The notes under the pieces: generated by a model | The model's database searches: none | Seen by the model: the letters and a program-made list of their open reading frames with translations, nothing else | What the model was told of the DNA's origin: nothing | In this document: piece after piece, positions 1-56,841 of the stretch | How positions within the stretch are numbered: the stretch's first letter is position 1 | Layout of the letters: the number at the start of each line of letters is the position of its first letter | Program-made: the position numbers and the translations under genes | Origin: Sistotremastrum niveocremeum HHB9708 | Lineage: Eukaryota; Basidiomycota; Agaricomycetes; Sistotremastrales; Sistotremastraceae | Assembly: GCA_001630475.1 (NCBI GenBank) | Contig: KV419401.1 | Location: 1 to 64,000, forward strand | Reading direction: 5' to 3' | Length of the DNA stretch: 64,000 bases

Positions 1-416
1 ATGTGACGGTCACTATATCTTGCGGTATAGTATGCCGAACAGAGTCTCAAAGCAACAAACAAAGTCTTGAGGGAGTCGAGAATTGACAGGCCAAAAGGAC
101 AGTTGATTGTCGGGAAGAGAACTAAAGTAGATACATGAGAATGTAGCTACTTTATATACTAGAGGACGAGCGGAGAATAAACTACGATCGACCAACGAAA
201 AGAGTCCATGTGCTAGTCGTAACGGCTATGCTCGGCTACCGGAGGCCATATCCGTTACATCCGATCACGACTCAGTGAAGTAATTCAACTTGCTTTCCGC
301 CCTCGCGTGGTTGCAGTGAAATGATCATCTGGCACAAGCTTTTGTTTAATTCACTCTAAGAAGACAGTCTCTGGTGGCCTTTAATTAGGAACGACAAAAT
401 AACTTTGACGCGTCAA

Positions 417-3400
417 TTGTCAAGTGATGATAGTGACTTCGTCAATGGCGCAGTTTATGTTTGCGAGAAGAAGCCACGAAAGTCCCATCCCTCGAGACAA
501 GAAAAAGAGGGAGGCCGCGGAAAGAGGAGAAGGACTCTGGCTCAGACTACGGAACCTTGCCGAAACCAAGGTGCAAAGTGAAAGGTATGTCTCAGTCTTG
601 CATACTTTGATGCATTGATTTATCTGGGACATTGTCAAAGGCGGCATTCGGAGAAGAGGCAAAGCCAGCGGCTCCCATTATAACAATCCGCTGGCAGAAT
701 ATCTAGGTTTCACTCTTCTATACCTTGAAAAGACACTGGACTGAAATCGTGCCCCTCTCAAGGCTCTGACCTCGATCTACTTTCTACTTCTGAAGGAGAC
801 GAGCCTCCTCAAGATGAAGAAGCCGGAGAATCTGAAGAAGAGGACGCCCCCGAAGAACTGAGTCAGAAGTCCCGCTCTCGAGCCTCTCATGGTACACCCC
901 CTAGAGTGGTGAAAGCGAGCTGTAATATCTTCTCTGGCTCTGGGTCAGGTGCGTTCTAATGCCAAAGCTGTTCTTCGTTCCATATTTGTCGCTGATATCA
1001 AAACATCAGAACTTGAACCTCCGTCAAACGACGATCGAGCAGCACGCCTTCGAGGTCGGTCAAACGGCAGAAAGTGGAGGCCAGCGCCAGTGTGTAGCTC
1101 GAACCTTGTCCACACAATTGCTGACGACACGTCTCCTATCCTCCTCCTGTTATGGATGATGGCTCTCACACAGAATCTGACCCTTAACAAGATACCGTAC
1201 TAGAGCAAGCCAAAGAGAGCGCGACTGAGTCGTCAACGGAAGAAGAAGAGGGAGATGGAACCACTATTCCGCGTGTAGATTAGGTACTTGAGTTTATTGA
1301 TTCGCTCGTCATAAAAAAACTAAGCCACGTATGCCCCAGAATTTCACCCCCCGTCCCAATTTTCCCGTGGCACCGCGTCAGTCCAAGATTGGGTCGTTCG
1401 TTCTCAGTGAAGGCCTAGGCGTACAAGTCACCGAGTTTATCAACCGATACTTGCGAGATTATCAAAGAGAAGGCGTGAAATTTTTGTATGATCGTTACAA
1501 GGAAGGCCGCGGTGGCGTGTTGGGCGACGACATGGATTGGGTATTTTTCTACCTACTTTTCTGAGACTTTGTTCATTGACATGTATAGAGGCAAAAGCAT
1601 TCAGGTTATCTCATTCTTTGCCGCAATCATGAAGAAAACCGGTGACAAACGCGATGACCAACTACGATATGTTCATGTCAAAAAGCTACAGGACCGAAAA
1701 GACTGGAGAGAGAATCTTCCGCCTCCTACTGATATATGGCTGACCTGTTCAATGGCTGCGCCTACCACAGCTGCCCACAATTGGGAGCGAGAGTTTCAGA
1801 CGGTCAGTGCTTTCGTTCGTTGCTGTGACTGGTACGCTGAAATATTTTAGTGGGGTTATTTCGAAGTCGATATATATACAGGCTCAGATCGGGATGAAGT
1901 TTGTTTTAGCCTTCATGACTTCAAATTGGGAAGGCGTGACGTGCGTGAGTGTGAAATCTCTTTGCTGCGCACTCTCCTCCTCATAACCGATTCACGTATA
2001 CAGTTGTGACTTCGTTCGAGATCGCTCGTTCCGACATCTAAATGCTGGACTCTTTACCTTTCTCCTGCATTTTCGTGGACGAGGCACATAGAATCAAAAA
2101 CCCGCGATCACAAACCACACGAGCGTTTAGTCAGTTTGAATGTGTAATCTGCTTTGGTCTCACTGTATGTCGAGTTTGTCAACGTCTTCAATATGACCTC
2201 TCACATTCTCGAATGATACGCAGGGTACTGCCATTCAAAACGATTATGCCGAGCTATGGACCTTACTTGACTGGTGGAATCCTGAACGGCTGGGAACGAT
2301 GGACCAATGGAGAAAATGCGTGACTCGTCCTCTAACTACTGGACAATCGCAGAAAGCTAGCACTGAGCAGCTCGCTGTCGCAAGGGTATGTGTCGGCGCT
2401 CACAGAGTCTTTCTCACTGACAGGGGATCACAGCGACTTGCACTTCGGCTCGTGAAGAATCTGCTACCACACTTCTTCTTGCGGAGGTATTCACGTACTG
2501 CGATGTCTTCATCTTATCATCTAACACTGCGCCTGTTTAGAACAAAGGCGTTGATTGCAGATCAGGTGCTTATCATCATCTTCCTCAATCGTCGCTCTTA
2601 TTCAGATCTGTCCAGCTTCCCGGCAAATCCCATGAGGTCGTGTTCTGTCGTCTGACCAATGCTCAGCTAGAAGCATGCAAGCGCTTCCTCTCGTTACAGT
2701 CCGTACAAAACATGATTCTCGCCCAAGACCTCTGCGAATGCGGTAGCCGTAAAAAGTACGTCATCCTTTAGAACGACAGAGTCTCAGCCTTTCATTGTTG
2801 AATATTTAGACGATCAGCATGTCATCACCCTGTGGAGCAAGGCGAAGCGTTGAAATACATCAGCGTATTCATGAAGGTGCTGGTTCTCCTCGCATTCGTA
2901 GGGTGACAGCAGCTAACTTTCTTCCAATAGATTTCGAATCACCTTGTACTTATCCTCCCTTGTATGCACTCATCATTCTCCAAGAAAGAACCGGGCTATA
3001 ATATAGGACAGCACCTTCTGACAATCAAGGACAAGCTACCCGAAATCGTGAACTAGCGACTATTGCATTTCCTGATGGCGCCCCGTCATACGGGTTGGCG
3101 ATCTTCGATCCAAACTTATGTGGAAAGTGGGCTGTACGCGATCCATTTCCCTTCCCCCGTACCGTCCACGATTGACAACTGTCAGGTCCTTAACACGCTA
3201 CTGCAAACATGGAGAAAAGAACGAGGAAATAAAGTTCTCGTCTTCACTCAATCAGTAAAGTTAATTGAAATGTTGAAGTATCATCTCTCGCGTGAAGGTA
3301 CAAGGATTTTCCAATACTGCCTGTCATCGAGCTAAAGTTAGTATTCAGGGTACCATTACCGAACACTTGACGGGAGCACCAAACAATCCGATAGTAGGCG

Positions 3401-4982
3401 ATCCCATGACGCTAGTACTTAGTCATTGACTCGGTGCTAGGGATGCCCATCATCGACGAATTTAGCAACGACCCTGATGTCTTTCTCTTCGTCATTTCTA
3501 AGTTAGCTGGCGGGACGGGTTTGAATTTAACGGCTGCTAACAAAGTCGTCATATTTGGTATGCGGGCGGCTTTTGCGGTATATGTACCCGGTTAACAGTT
3601 CTTCGTGTCAGATCCAAACTGGAGTAAGTGCTCCGCACCGACTCTTCTTAGTCCGAGCTGAATGGAATTGAAGATCCGGCTCATGACCTCCAAGCGATTG
3701 ATAGGTGACGTTATCGAGTTCACATCTCCATCTAATTGATTGTCTGATGCTCCTGCCGCAGAGCTTTCCGTATCGGTCAACGCCGTGATGTTTCAGTTTA
3801 CCAACTTCTGGCTGCCGGCAGTTTGGAAGAACATATCTATCGGCGTCAAATATACAAGCAACAGCAGATGGCTATTGGATATGAGGCTAGCGCACAAACA
3901 AGGTATGCTATCAATTGTGAAACGTTCCACCCCCCCCCTTATACGTGCATCAGGTATTTCGTGGGCGTCCAAGGCCAAAGGGGCAAGGTGAGATGATAAA
4001 TTGTCTGAGTATTTGTCATCTCTGATCTTTCGTAGGAAGGCGATCTGTTCGGTTTGAAGAATCTATTCACTCTCAACGAAGATAGCTATGCCACAAAAAT
4101 GACTGTCAGTCTTTCTCCCTTCCTAGACACGGGTAGTTCAAGAAGAATCCGCAGATCGAGAAAGCCAACCGCGATCAATTGAATTGGGCACTCGCACACT
4201 TTGATGGTTCGATGCTCTCCGAAATTCCATCCGAGGAGTTGGCCGCAAAGACTGGGAAAGTGGATACGGTAGCTGTAGATGACATTAAAGGGCTGAAGAG
4301 CTTCCTGTTCGCCGAAGGTATGCTCTTGGCTGTCTCCCAATGAGACGCAGCGTTCATCATCTACATACGCAGAAGATCAAGAGGATACCACCGCTATTCT
4401 TGCTTCCCACGGCGCGGGATATATGCACATCAATGACGATGTTCTCAAACCTACAAACGTCGAGGATCAGCTTACCGAAGTTGCGATCAAAGTCCGTTTA
4501 TTGTGTGTCTTCCACTCTTGTGGCTGTTGATTGTAGGTTTCAGGAGCGCAAACGTCGACGTCGCTCCGAGAAAATTAGCAAGAAAAGCCAAGAAGAATCC
4601 CAGAATTCGCAGACCCCTCCTAAGCCCGCGTGGCCTCCAAAGGTTCGCTTTAGTGAAACTGCGAATAGTAACGTGTCTTGATGTCTTTCTTAGAGAAAAC
4701 ACCACAAGACCCAAGCTCCGCTATCGCCACTTTCTAGGTCAGCTTGTGAGCTTCCTGGCACGCAGGCTCTGACATATATTGTTGCAGGCTATACGTTCGC
4801 CAACACGCTCTGATTGCACTGGGCTATATCAAAGAAAAGGAGGATTTGGACAAGTCTGCAGCCGATTTGTGGGTCAATTCATCGTTTGTATGGGTTGAGC
4901 TAACTCCTTCCGCAGTGTCAATCGGACACCACAAGAACAACGAGAGATTCTTTTGAAATTGGATTATCCAGATGAGATCTAG
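417..4982 (+). pseudogene. ERCC6L2-type SNF2 ATPase pseudogene
   Basis: Collinear with the intact gene at 51680-56275 from start to stop, with all introns still recognisable. The position of the start codon reads TTG (417-419) where the intact copy has ATG. One G is missing in the nucleotide-binding motif near 1531-1540, so the GDDMGLG motif is shifted out of frame. Frame changes recur further on, and no frame stays open for more than about 120 codons. Recognisable fragments remain: VDEAHRIKNP (motif II, near 2075), LAGGTGLNL (near 3510) and the family C-terminal tail ending YPDEI just before the stop at 4980-4982. Substitutions fall in exons and introns alike, as expected without selection. 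The gene upstream of the duplicated block is different, so the copy kept only a short piece of its original promoter (about 155 bp). Confidence 0.9.
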
Positions 4983-5179
4983 CTGAGTGTTTTGCTTTCT
5001 TGTTTGCATTATAATACATGTAATATATTATACAATCTTTATTGGAGGTAATGCTACATAATGGCGAAGAGAGGCAGTGCAGAGGTAGTAAATAATGCGA
5101 TTAATGATATTGGCACATCGGGGAATGGCCAGTTGAACCCAGATACGCAGTGTAAATTCATGGTGCATCTCTGACAGTC

Positions 5180-7457
5180 CTATGCATCATCGAGAATCAA
5201 ACGCGGTATCACATTCATGGCCATTAACTGCGACTCATTAGAATGCGCAAATCGAAGCAGAGCGAAGAACACGCCTCTTGGAATAATAGCTTGGCAGCAT
5301 ACGGAATGGACAGCTGCGCTACGTTTTTCAAACTCTTGCAATACGGACACCATCCATTATAACCCATCAGCCCGCATTTTTGACAAGCGTTGACTTCAAA
5401 CTTGTCGGAGGAGATCATGAGACGTTCCAGGAGAAGTTGTGTGGCTCCATAACCAATCAGACAATCGCGTTCCATCTCTCCGAGTCGGAGGCCACCTTCG
5501 CGAGAACGACCCTCGGTAGGCTGGCGAGTCAAGGTAGCACGGGGCCCTCTATGATTCGTGTTATTTCATGCAAATCAGTAGAACGTATGATCTAACCTTG
5601 CTCGAGCATGCATCTTATCCATGACCATGTGCTCTGTGAAATTATTCGATACTGTGCTGATCTGAGGAATATGAAAACTGACTGAGTTTCTGATAATAAA
5701 TTGGACCAAAAGAGAACTATGCTTCGAGTGGTTCGCCGGTAAGTCCGTTGGCCAACATGTCCTTGCCCGGCTTGCCAGAGTAGCTGAAGTCGTTCTCTAT
5801 AATTATAAGGATTCGCGACATGTCTTCAACTTTCGAGCCGGCAAACGCTGTTCCATACTGAAGCTTCCCACTTAGCACACCGGCCTTTGAGACAGTTCAG
5901 ATCAGGCAGCGCGTAAAGCCGAATTGAGAGACGCACTTTGCCCGCTAGAAACTCTATCATTTTCCGTACCATCATACGGGACGGGAAACCGTGAGGGTTC
6001 ATAATGGTATCAGGCCACAGGATAAGAACAGTGCAAGCACTATCAAACCAAGTATTTAACTGCAACAATTCCCCGATCGTTGAAGGGTAGGTCTTCTTGG
6101 TTGACAATGAGACCGCAAACACCCTTCTCCCCGTGTCTGGAAGACAACCTGTCACTCAGCTCTGGCCTACAGGTCCGACGAATGAGAGCTTTGATAAGAA
6201 GCGCGTCCCACGCGCCTGTGATCATCATCTTATCGATGTAGCCAGGTATGGGGAATTTGTAAGTCAGATGTGTAGTCTTGTACGGGGCGGCGCCTTGACC
6301 AGTGAGAGAGTTGTCTGCAGCGTTTTTCGGCGTCTGTTTGTTGATATAGATGTCACCGGGATAAACTTGCTCGACTAGTCCCGCTAAGCCTTCAGCCTGG
6401 ATGATATCGTATTTCTTTTACACATTTCCATGTTCGTCCACTAGGGCGTCTGCTAATCGATCGAACCTAATCCCTCGCGTGAGAATATGAGCAGCGGAAG
6501 ACATCAGGTGCACTTACGTTCCGTTAGGGTACTTTCGTATTATGGTAGAAAACTTTCGTAAAACTTGACATCGGCCATAAGCACGATCCAAGCTCGCCTA
6601 TCGAGAACAGAAGTCAGTCAAGACCTTGCTATATATCTGATATTCTGACTGACTTTGCTCAGGATCAAGGCGTCTTCAATATCATAACCTGATTAACTCA
6701 TAACCGCGACGGTGGCATTTTGCCCCGCCGGGAACTTGTCCCATCCGATCAGCTCGATAGTCTCAGTCTTGACCATGGGCTGTTGCGGATATACAGGGAG
6801 GTAAAACGGAGTATCGATACGATTGAGCTGGTTATATGTGATAGCCCCAATTGCCTGTTTACCCATATATGCATAGCGCATTGATAGGTGTTACGCGGTG
6901 ATTGGTTGTGGTGAGGATAGGGAATAAGACCAGCGACGACACCAAGGATCGTCAAGGGTTCAATCTCAATCTCAAGGTGAGTAGTGCCAGGGACGATATT
7001 GGATTCGTAGAGAGCCATAAGAGCATCGTTCTCTTCATTGGCGTCCAGGTATTCGACCAGGCCCATGCTAAGGAAGTCGTCAAAGACGTACTCTCCTGTC
7101 TTCAACATCTGAATGAAAGGTCAGAAAGTGAAGGATGATGACAGGGCATGCTCACTATTACATGGTCGCTCGTAACCCGGGATTTCTCGTTTTTCACAAT
7201 GCTCATTGGCCCACAAATACGACCGCCGTCGCTCGCTATATGTAGAGCTTGGTAGTGGTGGTTTACATAGACGCTGACGAATTCGCTGAAGCGTCTTGCT
7301 CGACGCAATCGACGAAAATTCGCAAGGAAGCGCGTAGGAAACCAGGTCAATCCGATGATAGAACCGGTAACGTTGACCACGAAAGTGGACGGGGCGTAAA
7401 TCTCTGCGCCGTTCGCAAGACAAATATCAAGACACAGCATGAGCATGATATCTGATA
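5180..7457 (-). pseudogene. RPC2 (Pol III second-largest subunit) 3' pseudogene
   Basis: Corresponds to RPC2 exons from the third intron-bounded block to the stop (intact copy 49228-51478). The first part of the gene, about 550 codons, is absent because the duplication starts inside an intron. Lesions visible against the intact copy: a 7-nt insertion near 6865-6871 breaks the frame; a tyrosine codon has become TAA (complement of 6693-6695); and a splice donor near 6052-6062 is destroyed (GGTAAGT changed to GTTAAAT). The zinc-binding end ([16 protein letters not shown]) is still readable near 5340-5390. It cannot encode a working polymerase subunit. Confidence 0.92.
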
Positions 7458-7469
7458 TCTCTGCGAGTA

Positions 7470-8640
7470 TGGCGAAGATTCGCTGGGTAACAAGTGGTCC
7501 GGGGAAGACGGGTAGAATATACGGAGGATTAAGTCAATCAGTCGCACGATGCTACTAGTAGTGGGGTACACCGTCAGCGCTAATGATGGCTCGATTCGGA
7601 TGGAGATGCATGGAGATCGATCGTGCGGGAAGAAGGAGGATATTGCCACAGAGTGATTTTAAAGCCGAAGCTAGAGTAATAGGGCCGATGTGTTCGTTGA
7701 GCTCATGTTTTCGTGACGCTCGAGTCGGTCCAAGGTCGGTAGTCTCAATAGAGAGAGAAGTGGCGAGCAGAAACCGGAAGCGTGCCTTCAACCGTCAGAA
7801 CGCGACAGCTCAAGAGAAGACGGGTTTTCATTGTCGGAGCGAGATACGAGTTGGATTCTGCTCGCCGACCAATATAAGCTTATGAATGTCGGGCGATGAC
7901 TCCAGCATGTTCAGGAATCCTCATGCTCTTTCTTATTCTATCTTTAGAGTCAACACCTGAAGAGACGCGGATGGACCGGAATCGTAGTGTGTTGTCGAGC
8001 GGAACCGCGCATCACGTAGCTGGGGCCACGTCTCGCAAAAAGAGCGAAAGGAAGACGGATTGTGAAGCTGACAGTCAGTGTGCAGCGACGTGGGAGAGGA
8101 GCCGGACTGTTGAGAGTATGAGGGAGTGCTTGACTGTTGTGTCCGTTTTGGACCACGACGTTCAAGTGTTTGGTGACTTTCACGTTCTCAGGCTGCTTCA
8201 AGAAAGACGCCCATAGATCTGCGTCGATTTTGATATCTTCAGTTCACTTTCCGTGGGTGTTAGGATAGACAGGAAGAGCGGGATTTTGACGTGTCCCCCA
8301 AGAGCGATGGAGGTCAAGAGCGACGATCTCTTGAGGCCACTGCAGATCAATGGTGGACCATATTTCGTGTCAACTGAGGGCGGCAGCACGAATGCAACGA
8401 TTTCTGAAAGGTCATGGACATTTGAGATACACGTCAAGTATTGAGAGCGTACACTGGGCCAAGTCGAATACTGGCGTGTAGTCTGCTTTCTTGAGCCAAG
8501 GAAAGCGTAAGGGTCTCGTGCAAGATCCCCGTTCGAACGAGATGAAAGTCATTATCCCGAAAAGCGTTCCCAAAAGTGTTTCAGTAGAAAGCGCCGGAGC
8601 GGGATTCAAGTTGTGGATCGTTGTTTGAGCGCGCTTTTGC
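7470..8640 (-). pseudogene. F-box/LRR-like protein relic
   Basis: Minus-strand pieces resemble, in order, the intact F-box/LRR protein encoded head-to-head at 8709-10167. A piece near 8620 reads PAPALSTETLLGTLFGI, compared with the F-box start LPEETLHKIMKL. A piece near 8100 reads SPAPLPRRCTLTV, compared with HPAPLLQTCTLII. A piece near 7880 reads SSPDIHKLILVG, compared with ATPAVESLTLVG. The pieces lie in different frames and are separated by stops, so the copy is dead. Similarity is only moderate, pointing to an old paralogue. The exact ends are uncertain. It abuts the edge of the duplicated block at 7457. Confidence 0.6.
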
Positions 8641-8708: not shown

Positions 8709-10167
8709 ATGCTCGTGGATGCACTACCAGAAGAAACGTTACACAAGATTATGAAGCTTTCCATCGAAGATAAAATGCCGCTATCTCCAAAACAGAGGTT
8801 GTCGGCCACCCTCCGTCTGGGGCTATTGTATGCTTCCATCCTAGGCTGTCCAGTTTATAGAACTGACGAGACCGTGATGTTTCAGAAATCGCCGTCTTCG
8901 CGCTGTTTCCCTCAACTGTGCCGAAATCTGGTCCACAATCCACTTACAATGGAAGCAGGATATCGTCCTTCTGTATTTGCAACGCGTCCATCAGTCTTGC
9001 GAAAACCCTGCCCTCGTTATCTATCTTGATACAAATGGAAAACTTACCGAGAGTCTCCTCGTTCGCGCGGGCCACTGGGCTTCGTTCTTCAGTCAAAATA
9101 TGGCGTCAATCAAAGCTCTCCATGTTATCATTAACCCAGGACGTATCGGCCCTGCACTCGTGCCAGCGTTCAATCATCCTGCCCCTCTCCTTCAGACTTG
9201 CACCTTGATAATTAACAACAAGATCCAACTTTCTACATCAATCTTCGCGCAACAAGCACCGAATCTTCGCATTGCAAAATTCCGTTCTCCTTCACACTTC
9301 AAAATCGGTCACGCTCCCTCTCTCCGTGTTCTCGACATCAGAATCAATAAACAGAATGTCAAAGGGTTTCTGAATGCGATAGAAGCAACCCCAGCTGTCG
9401 AGTCCCTTACTCTTGTTGGAGTACAGGATGCGCAGCCCTTTCTTCTCGGAAAGCGCGGGCCACTCATTCTTCCTCAGTGCCGCTCGTTGACGATTAAGAA
9501 CATGCCCTGGACATCTGCGCGCCCATTGATGTCACTATTGAGGCTACCGTCCTTAGTTGCGCTCGACTACCACGAGATCCAGGACTTCATGCCTGCTGAG
9601 CCTGGGATCACGATGACATCGGCTTCGAAGTCCATTACCGAATTCAGTTCAAGACTTTCACACCCAACTCTCTCTATCGATCTTCTCCCGTATCGGATTG
9701 TCGTACGCTTGAAAGCGACTCCTTTTCGCTTTTGCTTTGTCAGCGATTGGTCAGGGGTTCCGTATATGCCACTTCCGGACCAAACACTCTCTCGTCGCAT
9801 CTTCGCGGAGCTTGAAGACATGCTCACTTGCCCCGCGAGTTGTCTTATCCAACCTGAGCAGCTCATATTCTCCTATAACCTGATGGACCAGAAGCACCCC
9901 CAGAGAATCCTCTTTTACGCCTTGCAGAATGACTTTCAAACACTTTTGGCCAGGATGTTCCGTGCCTATCCGTCCGTACAATCGCTTCAGCTGCGCCAGG
10001 TTCAGCATCCGGTCCGGGTGCTACTGGATGACCCACAGATTTTACCGCAGCTTTCAAGCGTTGAATTCCGTTCAGTTAATTCATCGATATCTCCAGAGAC
10101 TTGGCAGCTACTGCAAGACATTCAAGAAGCTAGGAGCGTCTCTTTTCACATGAAGATGCCACGATGA
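8709..10167 (+). CDS. F-box/LRR-type protein
   Basis: Two exons (8709-8827 and 8886-10167) joined by a 58-nt intron give 466 residues. The N-terminus LPEETLHKIMKLSIED followed by RLRAVSLNCAEIWSTI has the pattern of basidiomycete F-box proteins: a short F-box helix, then a segment with an invariant W. The rest is a chain of irregular leucine-rich units such as APNLRIAKFRS, APSLRVLDIRI and TPAVESLTLVG, which would form the substrate-binding surface. Family knowledge says such proteins bind Skp1 and bring targets to an SCF ubiquitin ligase; the target cannot be inferred. The start is the first in-frame ATG that precedes the F-box. Such genes multiply and decay quickly in agaricomycetes, which fits the dead relative upstream. 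Confidence 0.82.
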
Positions 10168-11270: not shown

Positions 11271-11532
11271 AAGTCGTTGCCAGATTTCTTTTGAGAACAG
11301 CGAACAATAAGAGTGCTGAGCCAGAATATAGCAGTCCATAGTAAATGACTGGAAAAAGCAAGGGGAAGCGCGGTTGCCGAGGTCCGGCTTCGGAGCCGAA
11401 AGCGGCTTGACAACCCGAACGCCGGTTCCGAAGGCCATTCTCTGCTTGTCGCTTCAACCATCCACTGCTCGTTTGCCTTGCTCGACGTTGTCTTATTGTT
11501 CGCTGTTCTCAAAAGAAATCTGGCAACGACTT
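11271..11532. mobile_element. MITE-like element with perfect 42-bp inverted ends
   Basis: Positions 11271-11312 and 11491-11532 are exact reverse complements over 42 nt (outer end aagtcgttgccagatttctt). They enclose 178 nt of non-coding sequence, total 262 bp. This is the form of a small non-autonomous DNA transposon (MITE). No clear target-site duplication is visible: the left flank is gctctt and the right flank is cagtag. The transposon family is unknown and a simple foldback repeat is the alternative. The perfect match of the arms suggests a recent origin or gene conversion between them. Confidence 0.6.
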
Positions 11533-11599: not shown

Positions 11600-12425
11600 C
11601 TCTACACCCACCTCCACCTTCGACGACGGATGGCGCTCGATGCGTGCTGCAGCTGGCACTAGCTGTTGGCAGCAGCACGCGCGTCGATCCTAGTTGCTCT
11701 ATGTTCACAAGAACAGAATCGACTGTGTTAGGAGACCCCGCCGGGCCCGCCCAAACCTTCCATCCCGTCTGCAGCACTGCAGGCACGATGGTCGTACCAG
11801 TCGAGAGCTCAAGAAGGTGCAGGGCTGGCTATGTGGTCTCGTGCCACCGCCAGGGAGTGGGTCGATGTTGCTTCATGCTCGTCGACCCTTCGTCTCCTTT
11901 GGAGACTCCGAGGTCTCACTTCCCACACCTTCATCGGATGGGACGGTTCATCGATCTTTGCATTGCGTGGAGATCTTTGAGGATCTACAGAGCATATCAA
12001 TGGGCAGGGTGAGTACCTGATCTCTCATTTCACTTCGTTATCTGATATAATATCTCCCTCCTTAACCCTCACCTCCACCTCCACCCTCAGCAAAGTGACG
12101 CTGCCTGCGTGCCTCGCTAGTGCCAGTCATTAGCAGAGGCACGCGCGTTCTTTGTGCTCGCTGCTCGCAAGAGCGAAATCGGCTGTGTCAGGGATTCCCT
12201 TCGCAAACGACCACTGGATCTGCACTCGCTGCAGTTGTAGGGGTCTACCAGTCGAGAGCTTAATGAGGTGCAGGCTTGGCGGCATGGTGTCGCTCCCCAG
12301 CCATGGAGTGGATCGATCTTGCGTTATGCTCGTCGATCCCTTCTCCTTTGGAGACTCCGAGGTCTCTCTCCGTCTCAAACTTTCATCGTATGGGACGGTT
12401 CATTGAGCTTCGCTCTCCATCGACA
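11600..12425. repeat. Diverged tandem duplication, two units of about 455 bp
   Basis: The text from about 11610-11990 recurs at about 12060-12420. Anchors include accagtcgagagct (about 11796 and 12248), cctttggagactccgaggtct (about 11897 and 12346) and gggacggttcat (about 11940 and 12393). Between the anchors the units differ by many substitutions and small indels. Short open frames occur in both units, but none is conserved through the whole unit, so coding potential is doubtful. The repeat begins about 70 bp after the inverted-repeat element. Confidence 0.7.
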
Positions 12426-47501: not shown

Positions 47502-56422
<8,921 letters not shown>

Positions 56423-56841
56423 ACGGGGCCGGCACCTACAGTAGTGACCACCCGCGTCCTTTCACAATCGAATTTCAAGCTCACCCGTGGCACTTTCCGA
56501 CCCCTCTTTCCTAGCGGCATGGGGATGGTGCAACTTGTCAATTACTCTCGCCTTTTACTAGAGTAATCCGTGTTCCGTCCCTGCCCTACTTGCCGCATGC
56601 CAATTTTTCAGCTCTCAGCTTGATCCTGAGTTTGTTTCTTCTTTTGCTTTTTGGCATCTTATTCTTTTGACCCATCCAAACTTGTTCAAGTGTGCTATCG
56701 GCATGTAACAGGTTGTCTGCTAACCCTCTAGTATTTTAAAATCATTATAATTATCGTAGATAGTATAATTTTCCGTGTCGAACATGAGCTGATGTCGTAG
56801 CAGGACTCATGTAGCAATGAACTAACGTTGAGATATTAAGG
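56423..56841. other. Unique upstream flank of ERCC6L2
   Basis: About 420 bp outside the duplication, between it and the prefoldin stop. AT-rich near 56735-56775 (aaatcattataattatcg). No gene is supported; it should hold most of the ERCC6L2 promoter, which the decayed copy lacks. Confidence 0.5.

Follow-up and report, generated by a model that had tools for sequence, protein, structure and literature searches.

The first 64,000 bases of contig KV419401.1 of Sistotremastrum niveocremeum HHB9708, analysed here as a whole and referred to as the window (49.4% G+C), contain two copies, inverted relative to each other, of a segment that spans the 3' half of RPC2 together with an ERCC6L2-like helicase gene convergent with it. 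The right copy (B) is part of an intact locus, and the left copy (A) is truncated and partly decayed. Comparison of the two copies indicates that A is probably a mosaic, i.e., a pseudogene whose middle was overwritten by a working, more diverged form of this locus. The duplication is real and its history is more complicated than was first read from the sequence; the event is of an ordinary kind, while the record that it left is an unusual one.

A blastn comparison of the window with itself returned one large match, 285-7456 against 56404-49232 on the minus strand, with 7,260 columns, 84.394% identity, and an E value of 0 (Table 1). By eye, homology at the left edge reaches about 260/56420, where both copies read TCCGATCACGA. 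The coordinates proposed in an earlier note (262-7457 and 49228-56422) are correct to about 25 bases, and its description of a DNA-level, inverted, non-tandem match that continues through introns and the convergent spacer is borne out, as are the edges, one within the RPC2 intron 49214-49260 (the right edge of the block) and the other upstream of ERCC6L2, some 130-145 bases from its start. In bins of 150 columns, identity within the block ranges from 0.70 to 0.96, in exons, introns, and spacer alike, and the edge bins have 0.67 (the first, which spans the left edge) and 0.36 (the last, past the right edge). The near-equal lengths that the same note had pointed out are real, but partly a coincidence, with 65 bases deleted and 64 inserted between A and B. 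Introns and the intergenic spacer of the source are kept in A, which makes it a copy of the unprocessed type, and the presence of introns rules out a processed pseudogene or retrocopy. Of the terminal repeats or target-site duplication that a transposon-borne copy would carry at both edges, inspection by eye gave a repeat of 7 bp at the right junction (minus-strand sequence GATATCA) and none at the left junction.

Table 1. Coordinates of the duplicated segment, its parts, and related features in the window
Feature	Position	Strand	Description
Left copy A	285..7456	+	Inverted, partly decayed; RPC2 3' half (minus strand) and whole ERCC6L2-like gene (plus strand)
Right copy B	49232..56404	-	Homologous segment within the intact RPC2/ERCC6L2 locus
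Left dead end of A	285..2053	+	Upstream stub and ERCC6L2 residues 1-378
Core of A	2054..5710		ERCC6L2 residue 379 to end, spacer, RPC2 residue 1015 to end
Right dead end of A	5711..7456	-	RPC2 residues 538-1014
RPC2, complete	47502..51478	+	12 exons, 1142 aa; copied part begins in intron 49214-49260
ERCC6L2-like SNF2 helicase, complete	51680..56275	-	28 exons, 1001 aa; convergent with RPC2
Degenerate head-to-head relative of open reading frame 8709-10164	7711..8417	-	Near the right edge of A; in-frame stops

The gene models of B come from a simple gene finder that allows for splicing and was trained on the window; some splice sites were then corrected manually, and the models are predictions made independently of transcripts. 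The RPC2 model matches PDB chains named RPC2, 5fj8_B with 1744 bits (residues 19-1141) and 7a6h_B with 1612 bits, which we take to be the yeast and human proteins, respectively. The helicase model contains the Pfam domains SNF2-rel_dom (PF00176), Helicase_C (PF00271), and VIGSSK (PF14773), the last of which is presumably a pointer to ERCC6L2. All 38 introns of the two models are GT...AG, as the gene finder demands, and many are about 50 bases long, a size that would suit an agaric-type basidiomycete. A U5 spliceosomal RNA gene (56514-56632, plus strand; Rfam RF00020, 63.2 bits) starts about 100 bases past the edge of the B block, and the duplicated block ends in the short gap between ERCC6L2 and U5. 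The spacer between the convergent genes (51479-51679) differs between A and B at 21 of 197 positions, below the level of the introns, and the 3' untranslated regions of the pair may be constrained.

The disabling lesions of A are confined to its outer parts. RPC2 is present in A only from residue 538 on, and ERCC6L2 in full; projection of the models through the alignment gives, for A, an ERCC6L2 start codon changed from ATG to TTG, six stops (three per gene), and ten exon indels, four of them out of frame. The left end has lost the start (417) and carries stops at 1185, 1281, and 2039, frameshift deletions near 485, 1018, and 1533, and, as aligned, one broken splice acceptor; the right end carries stops at 5719, 6420, and 6695, an 8-base frameshift insertion near 6864, and one intron with both ends broken. 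No stop or frameshift was found in the 3.7-kb core of A, where both exon indels, of 18 and 9 bases, preserve the frame. The core makes up 51% of the block, and the probability that none of the 11 lesions (the start, six stops, and four frameshifts) falls in it by chance is 4e-4, or 1.6e-3 when the two lesions nearest the limits are left out. The claim that one of the two copies is dead is borne out only in the flanks of the left copy, which hold all 11 lesions. In the RPC2 end, four insertions of 6-9 bases (A 5762, 5798, 6864, and 6960) were also noted, some of which resemble small tandem duplications by eye.

The splice sites follow the same division. As first aligned, 5 of 35 introns appeared broken in A (three RPC2 introns being outside coverage); after revision two remained, both in the ends. 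Among the 23 core introns, 20 are GT-AG, two are GC-AG, a form tolerated by splicing, and one has its AG a few bases off the aligned place, which is an alignment slip, as A has its own CAG there. Splice dinucleotides differ between the copies at 9 of 142 bases, a count that predates the revision of the broken-intron calls, versus 429 of 1,635 bases in intron interiors.

Divergence between A and B retains the pattern of coding sequence. The copies differ by 5.5, 5.5, and 22.8% at codon positions 1, 2, and 3 of ERCC6L2 and by 24.7% in its introns, the corresponding values for RPC2 being 5.1, 5.3, 21.3, and 22.0%. The pairwise ratio of nonsynonymous to synonymous divergence (dN/dS) is 0.130 (0.107-0.156) overall and 0.147 (0.106-0.201) in the truncated RPC2 half. 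In a copy dead from birth, given equal mutation in both copies, nonsynonymous divergence would be expected to reach about half of the silent divergence, i.e., a dN/dS of about 0.5, and the overall value, like those of the core and the ends given below, is lower. Simulated death at birth gave 14.6% differences at positions 1 and 2 and 21.5 stops (minima of 13.0% and 11 in 300 runs) versus 5.4% and 6 observed, and a second simulation, in which all 526 coding changes were neutral, led to 17.4 stops and 353 changed residues, whereas 6 and 172 were seen. The reading of the left copy as one that simply died is not supported by these comparisons. An excess of silent change of this kind would date from before the death of A provided that silent mutation rates at the A and B sites were similar, and such early divergence points to a full working gene, since selection is hardly conceivable on RPC2 in its truncated form. 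As to which copy has been constrained, the two outgroup chains agree at 265 RPC2 sites (up to about residue 985), and A and B differ at 33 of these; the shared residue is kept by B at 28 sites, by A at none, and by neither copy at 5, which identifies B as the constrained copy. An outgroup search with the last 606 residues of B RPC2 as the query yielded DNA from viral (7 loci) and prokaryotic (1 locus) collections, with 33-38% protein identity, and this was rejected as useless.

The change from dead end to core is abrupt. Silent divergence is lower near both edges of the block and higher in its middle (12 bins, chi-square P = 0.003), and divergence at positions 1 and 2 tends the opposite way. 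Fits with two breaks place these at B 50642 and 54865 from silent sites alone and at 50954 and 54629 from positions 1 and 2 alone, and the joint gain of 27.6 log units, on a coarse grid, compares with at most 14.6 in 300 within-class shuffles. In amino acids, 67 of 477 RPC2 codons are changed up to a switch at residue 1015 (A 5710) and 1 of 128 thereafter; in ERCC6L2, the numbers are 65 of 374 and 39 of 612, with the switch at residue 379 (A 2054). Neither gain was reached in 1,000 shuffles. These scans left out gapped codons (15 in all) and the stop codons of B, and the codon counts were identical under three other alignment settings. The shuffle tests thus support sharp internal boundaries, as expected of a gene-conversion mosaic.

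With the limits set at B 50954-54629, the core has a dS of 0.501, a dN of 0.028, and a dN/dS of 0.055 (0.039-0.076); its RPC2 part (dS 0.382, dN 0.003) shows 1 amino acid change versus 26 synonymous changes in 129 codons, and its ERCC6L2 part has a dS of 0.528 and a dN of 0.033. The ends are less diverged at silent sites and more diverged in protein, with dS 0.357, dN 0.067, and dN/dS 0.187 (0.137-0.252) for RPC2 and dS 0.302, dN 0.084, and dN/dS 0.278 (0.196-0.403) for ERCC6L2. At fourfold sites, 94 of 308 differ in the core versus 58 of 342 in the ends (P = 6e-5), and at positions 1 and 2 the relation is reversed, with 50 of 1471 versus 123 of 1715 (P = 2e-6; 6.5 and 8.4% in the two ends). 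Since the distance to B is greater for the core than for the ends, present B was not the immediate source of the core; the earlier proposal of the right copy as an intact source is not supported on this point. Twice the dN/dS limits the unconstrained share of the branch to at most about 37% in the RPC2 end and about 56% in the ERCC6L2 end, so that the ends, too, probably derive from a version already diverged from B.

We propose that the mosaic arose in two steps: (i) a segment reaching from the RPC2 intron to just upstream of ERCC6L2 would have been copied, inverted, to a place 42 kb away, its source being a working form of the locus with silent differences from present B already in place; truncation then killed RPC2 in A, and ERCC6L2 decayed too, as the lesions in it attest; and (ii) the middle 3.7 kb or so would later have been replaced, by recombination or gene conversion, by a functional version with a dS of about 0.5 to B, giving a nearly lesion-free core within dead ends. 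The donor may have been a sister species (through introgression or hybridization) or, within the same gene pool, a diverged haplotype; alternatively, a functional second copy elsewhere, or since lost, could have served. Judged from substitution patterns, the core appears to have been working after the ends had died and to have been constrained until recently: in its RPC2 part, 0.016 unconstrained substitutions per site would leave at most one change with a probability of 0.054. The proposal calls either for strongly diverged working versions within one gene pool or for another functional copy.

Several points weigh against this reading: (i) the intron contrast is modest, 279 of 982 positions (0.284) in the core versus 150 of 653 (0.230) in the ends (P = 0.016); (ii) in RPC2 there is no clear silent step across the boundary (synonymous codons 76 of 477 versus 26 of 129; dS 0.357 and 0.382), the silent rise of the core coming mainly from ERCC6L2 (50 of 374 versus 151 of 613), and differences in silent constraint along the block may contribute to this contrast; (iii) the six stops in the ends fit death at birth there (8.7 expected, range 4-14); (iv) a simulation that treats 263 coding changes, half of the total, as neutral in A predicts 9.2 stops and 183 changed residues, near those observed, and about half of the changes may thus have occurred in A when it was unconstrained, the others, which are almost all silent, having arisen while both versions worked; (v) stops that lie close to the boundaries were part of the data used to fit them; (vi) the gene models are ab initio; (vii) the donor is unseen, and silent changes are not assignable to A or B; and (viii) 3.7 kb is long for interlocus conversion, so a crossover or repeated exchange comes into consideration. 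As regards the third point, positions 1 and 2 of the ends do not fit death at birth (7.2% versus 11.8% expected, 10.4-13.3). Together, these counterpoints leave unexplained why amino acid changes in RPC2 cease in the middle of a fragment that should be free throughout.

Other histories can be weighed against the mosaic. That A is the remnant of an old, complete, functional paralogue, now without its 5' part and in decay, with exchange among copies in patches, would account for the constraint in the now truncated RPC2 half (dN/dS 0.147) without a foreign donor. We nonetheless consider it unlikely, as a single time of death would hardly leave one and the same gene with 67 of 477 codons changed in one stretch and 1 of 128 in the next, which implies that exchange with a still functional version is needed here as well, and the window holds only one other copy. 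An assembly chimera, in which the functional allele of the other haplotype was misjoined into the pseudogene locus, seems quite improbable to us: the core does resemble a working, diverged allele, such as the second nucleus of a dikaryon could supply, but both joins would need colinearity to within a few codons despite widely differing versions, the dead ends are also diverged from B, and overlap assemblers seldom join such divergent reads.

We regard as very unlikely the simplest account, in which B was copied to A and A was dead at once and decayed throughout. The truncated RPC2, lost start, stops, and frameshifts of A are what it predicts, as are the shared outgroup residues kept by B and the number of stops in the ends; the shortfall of changes at positions 1 and 2, in the whole block as in the ends, the low dN/dS of the core, and its freedom from lesions are not, and the account would hold only on the condition that silent sites evolved several times faster in B than in A. 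That the core is still in use, with C-terminal fragments of the convergent ERCC6L2 and RPC2 putatively expressed and selected within the dead duplication, is in our view very improbable, since the single nonsynonymous codon against 26 synonymous ones in the RPC2 part and the GT/GC and AG ends kept by all 23 core introns (in one only after local realignment) would have to be reconciled with a start in mid-helicase, past the Walker A region, with only the last 128 residues of RPC2, and with two unrelated fragments each needing a start and a use.

Three further candidates were rejected. Decay driven by repeat-induced point mutation or methylation is contradicted by C/T counts that are nearly equal in both directions, at 8.6-11.4% in every CpN context; at CpA, C in B with T in A was counted in 80 of 931 and C in A with T in B in 86 of 942, i.e., A has no C-to-T excess and no CpA preference. 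Homogenizing conversion by B does not explain the core, whose silent divergence from B is higher, not lower. The reverse order of events, with A diverged and dead and its ends later converted by B, is ruled out by the lesions, which sit in the ends.

Recombination between the two arms that inverts the interval between them, as suggested in the earlier note, is conceivable but no more than that. Their inverted orientation would fit inversion-breakpoint duplication through staggered breaks. The longest identical tract between them is 53 bp at an overall identity of 84%, and this makes a weak recombination substrate.

Beyond the right edge of A, the degenerate sequence listed last in Table 1 matches open reading frame 8709-10164 (plus strand) at 57% by blastn (E = 2.8e-23) and in tblastn segments of 43.8% and 41.9% (E = 5.5e-34), and our impression is that it reaches the block edge at 7457. 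Part 8878-10164 of this frame had no Pfam match, and the pair gives an impression of resembling an F-box/LRR-type family. Farther along, a perfect 42-bp inverted repeat occurs (11271-11312 and 11491-11532, with 178 bases between the arms). In a stretch with few gene models, two segments of about 170 bases (11790-11958 and 12242-12410) form a direct repeat and are 80% identical.

If the mosaic reading is right, a single pseudogene is the record of separate working versions of one housekeeping locus, which existed side by side in this fungus and recombined; their silent divergence from B would be about 0.13-0.22 for the ends (dS minus twice dN) and 0.38-0.53 for the two gene parts of the core, and a hidden second haplotype, introgression, or hybridization becomes testable. 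It would also mean that identity and stop codons alone may give a wrong history, here that of an intact source plus a dead copy. Among the literature matches listed, judged by their titles and the opening lines of their abstracts, no mosaic pseudogene of the RPC2-ERCC6L2 locus was found, which is weak evidence of absence.

Among known systems, A is most readily compared with duplicated (unprocessed) pseudogenes and partial segmental duplications, with which it shares introns and spacer, truncation at one end, and disabling lesions; it departs from these in that roughly half of its length has divergence of the functional type and is free of start, stop, and frameshift lesions. With repeat-induced point mutation it has in common that a fungal duplication of more than 1 kb has a mutated copy, but the C-to-T excess is absent. 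Mosaics of interlocus or ectopic gene conversion share with A the sharp boundaries between stretches of different history; in contrast to these, the tract in A is more diverged from the sole visible paralogue, with a donor outside the window. The Schizophyllum commune genome has roughly 57% G+C, above the 49% of the window. According to PMC3924818, gene conversion occurs mainly above 80% identity, and mean tracts in yeast are about 200-500 bp, compared with the 3.7 kb of the tract in A. For S. commune, PMC9187340 gives neutral diversities of 0.20 and 0.13 within two populations and a dS of about 0.34 between them, together with stretches in which two highly divergent haplotypes occur; this species thus demonstrates the existence of hyperpolymorphic pools, whose divergence is, on these figures, roughly of the size needed here.

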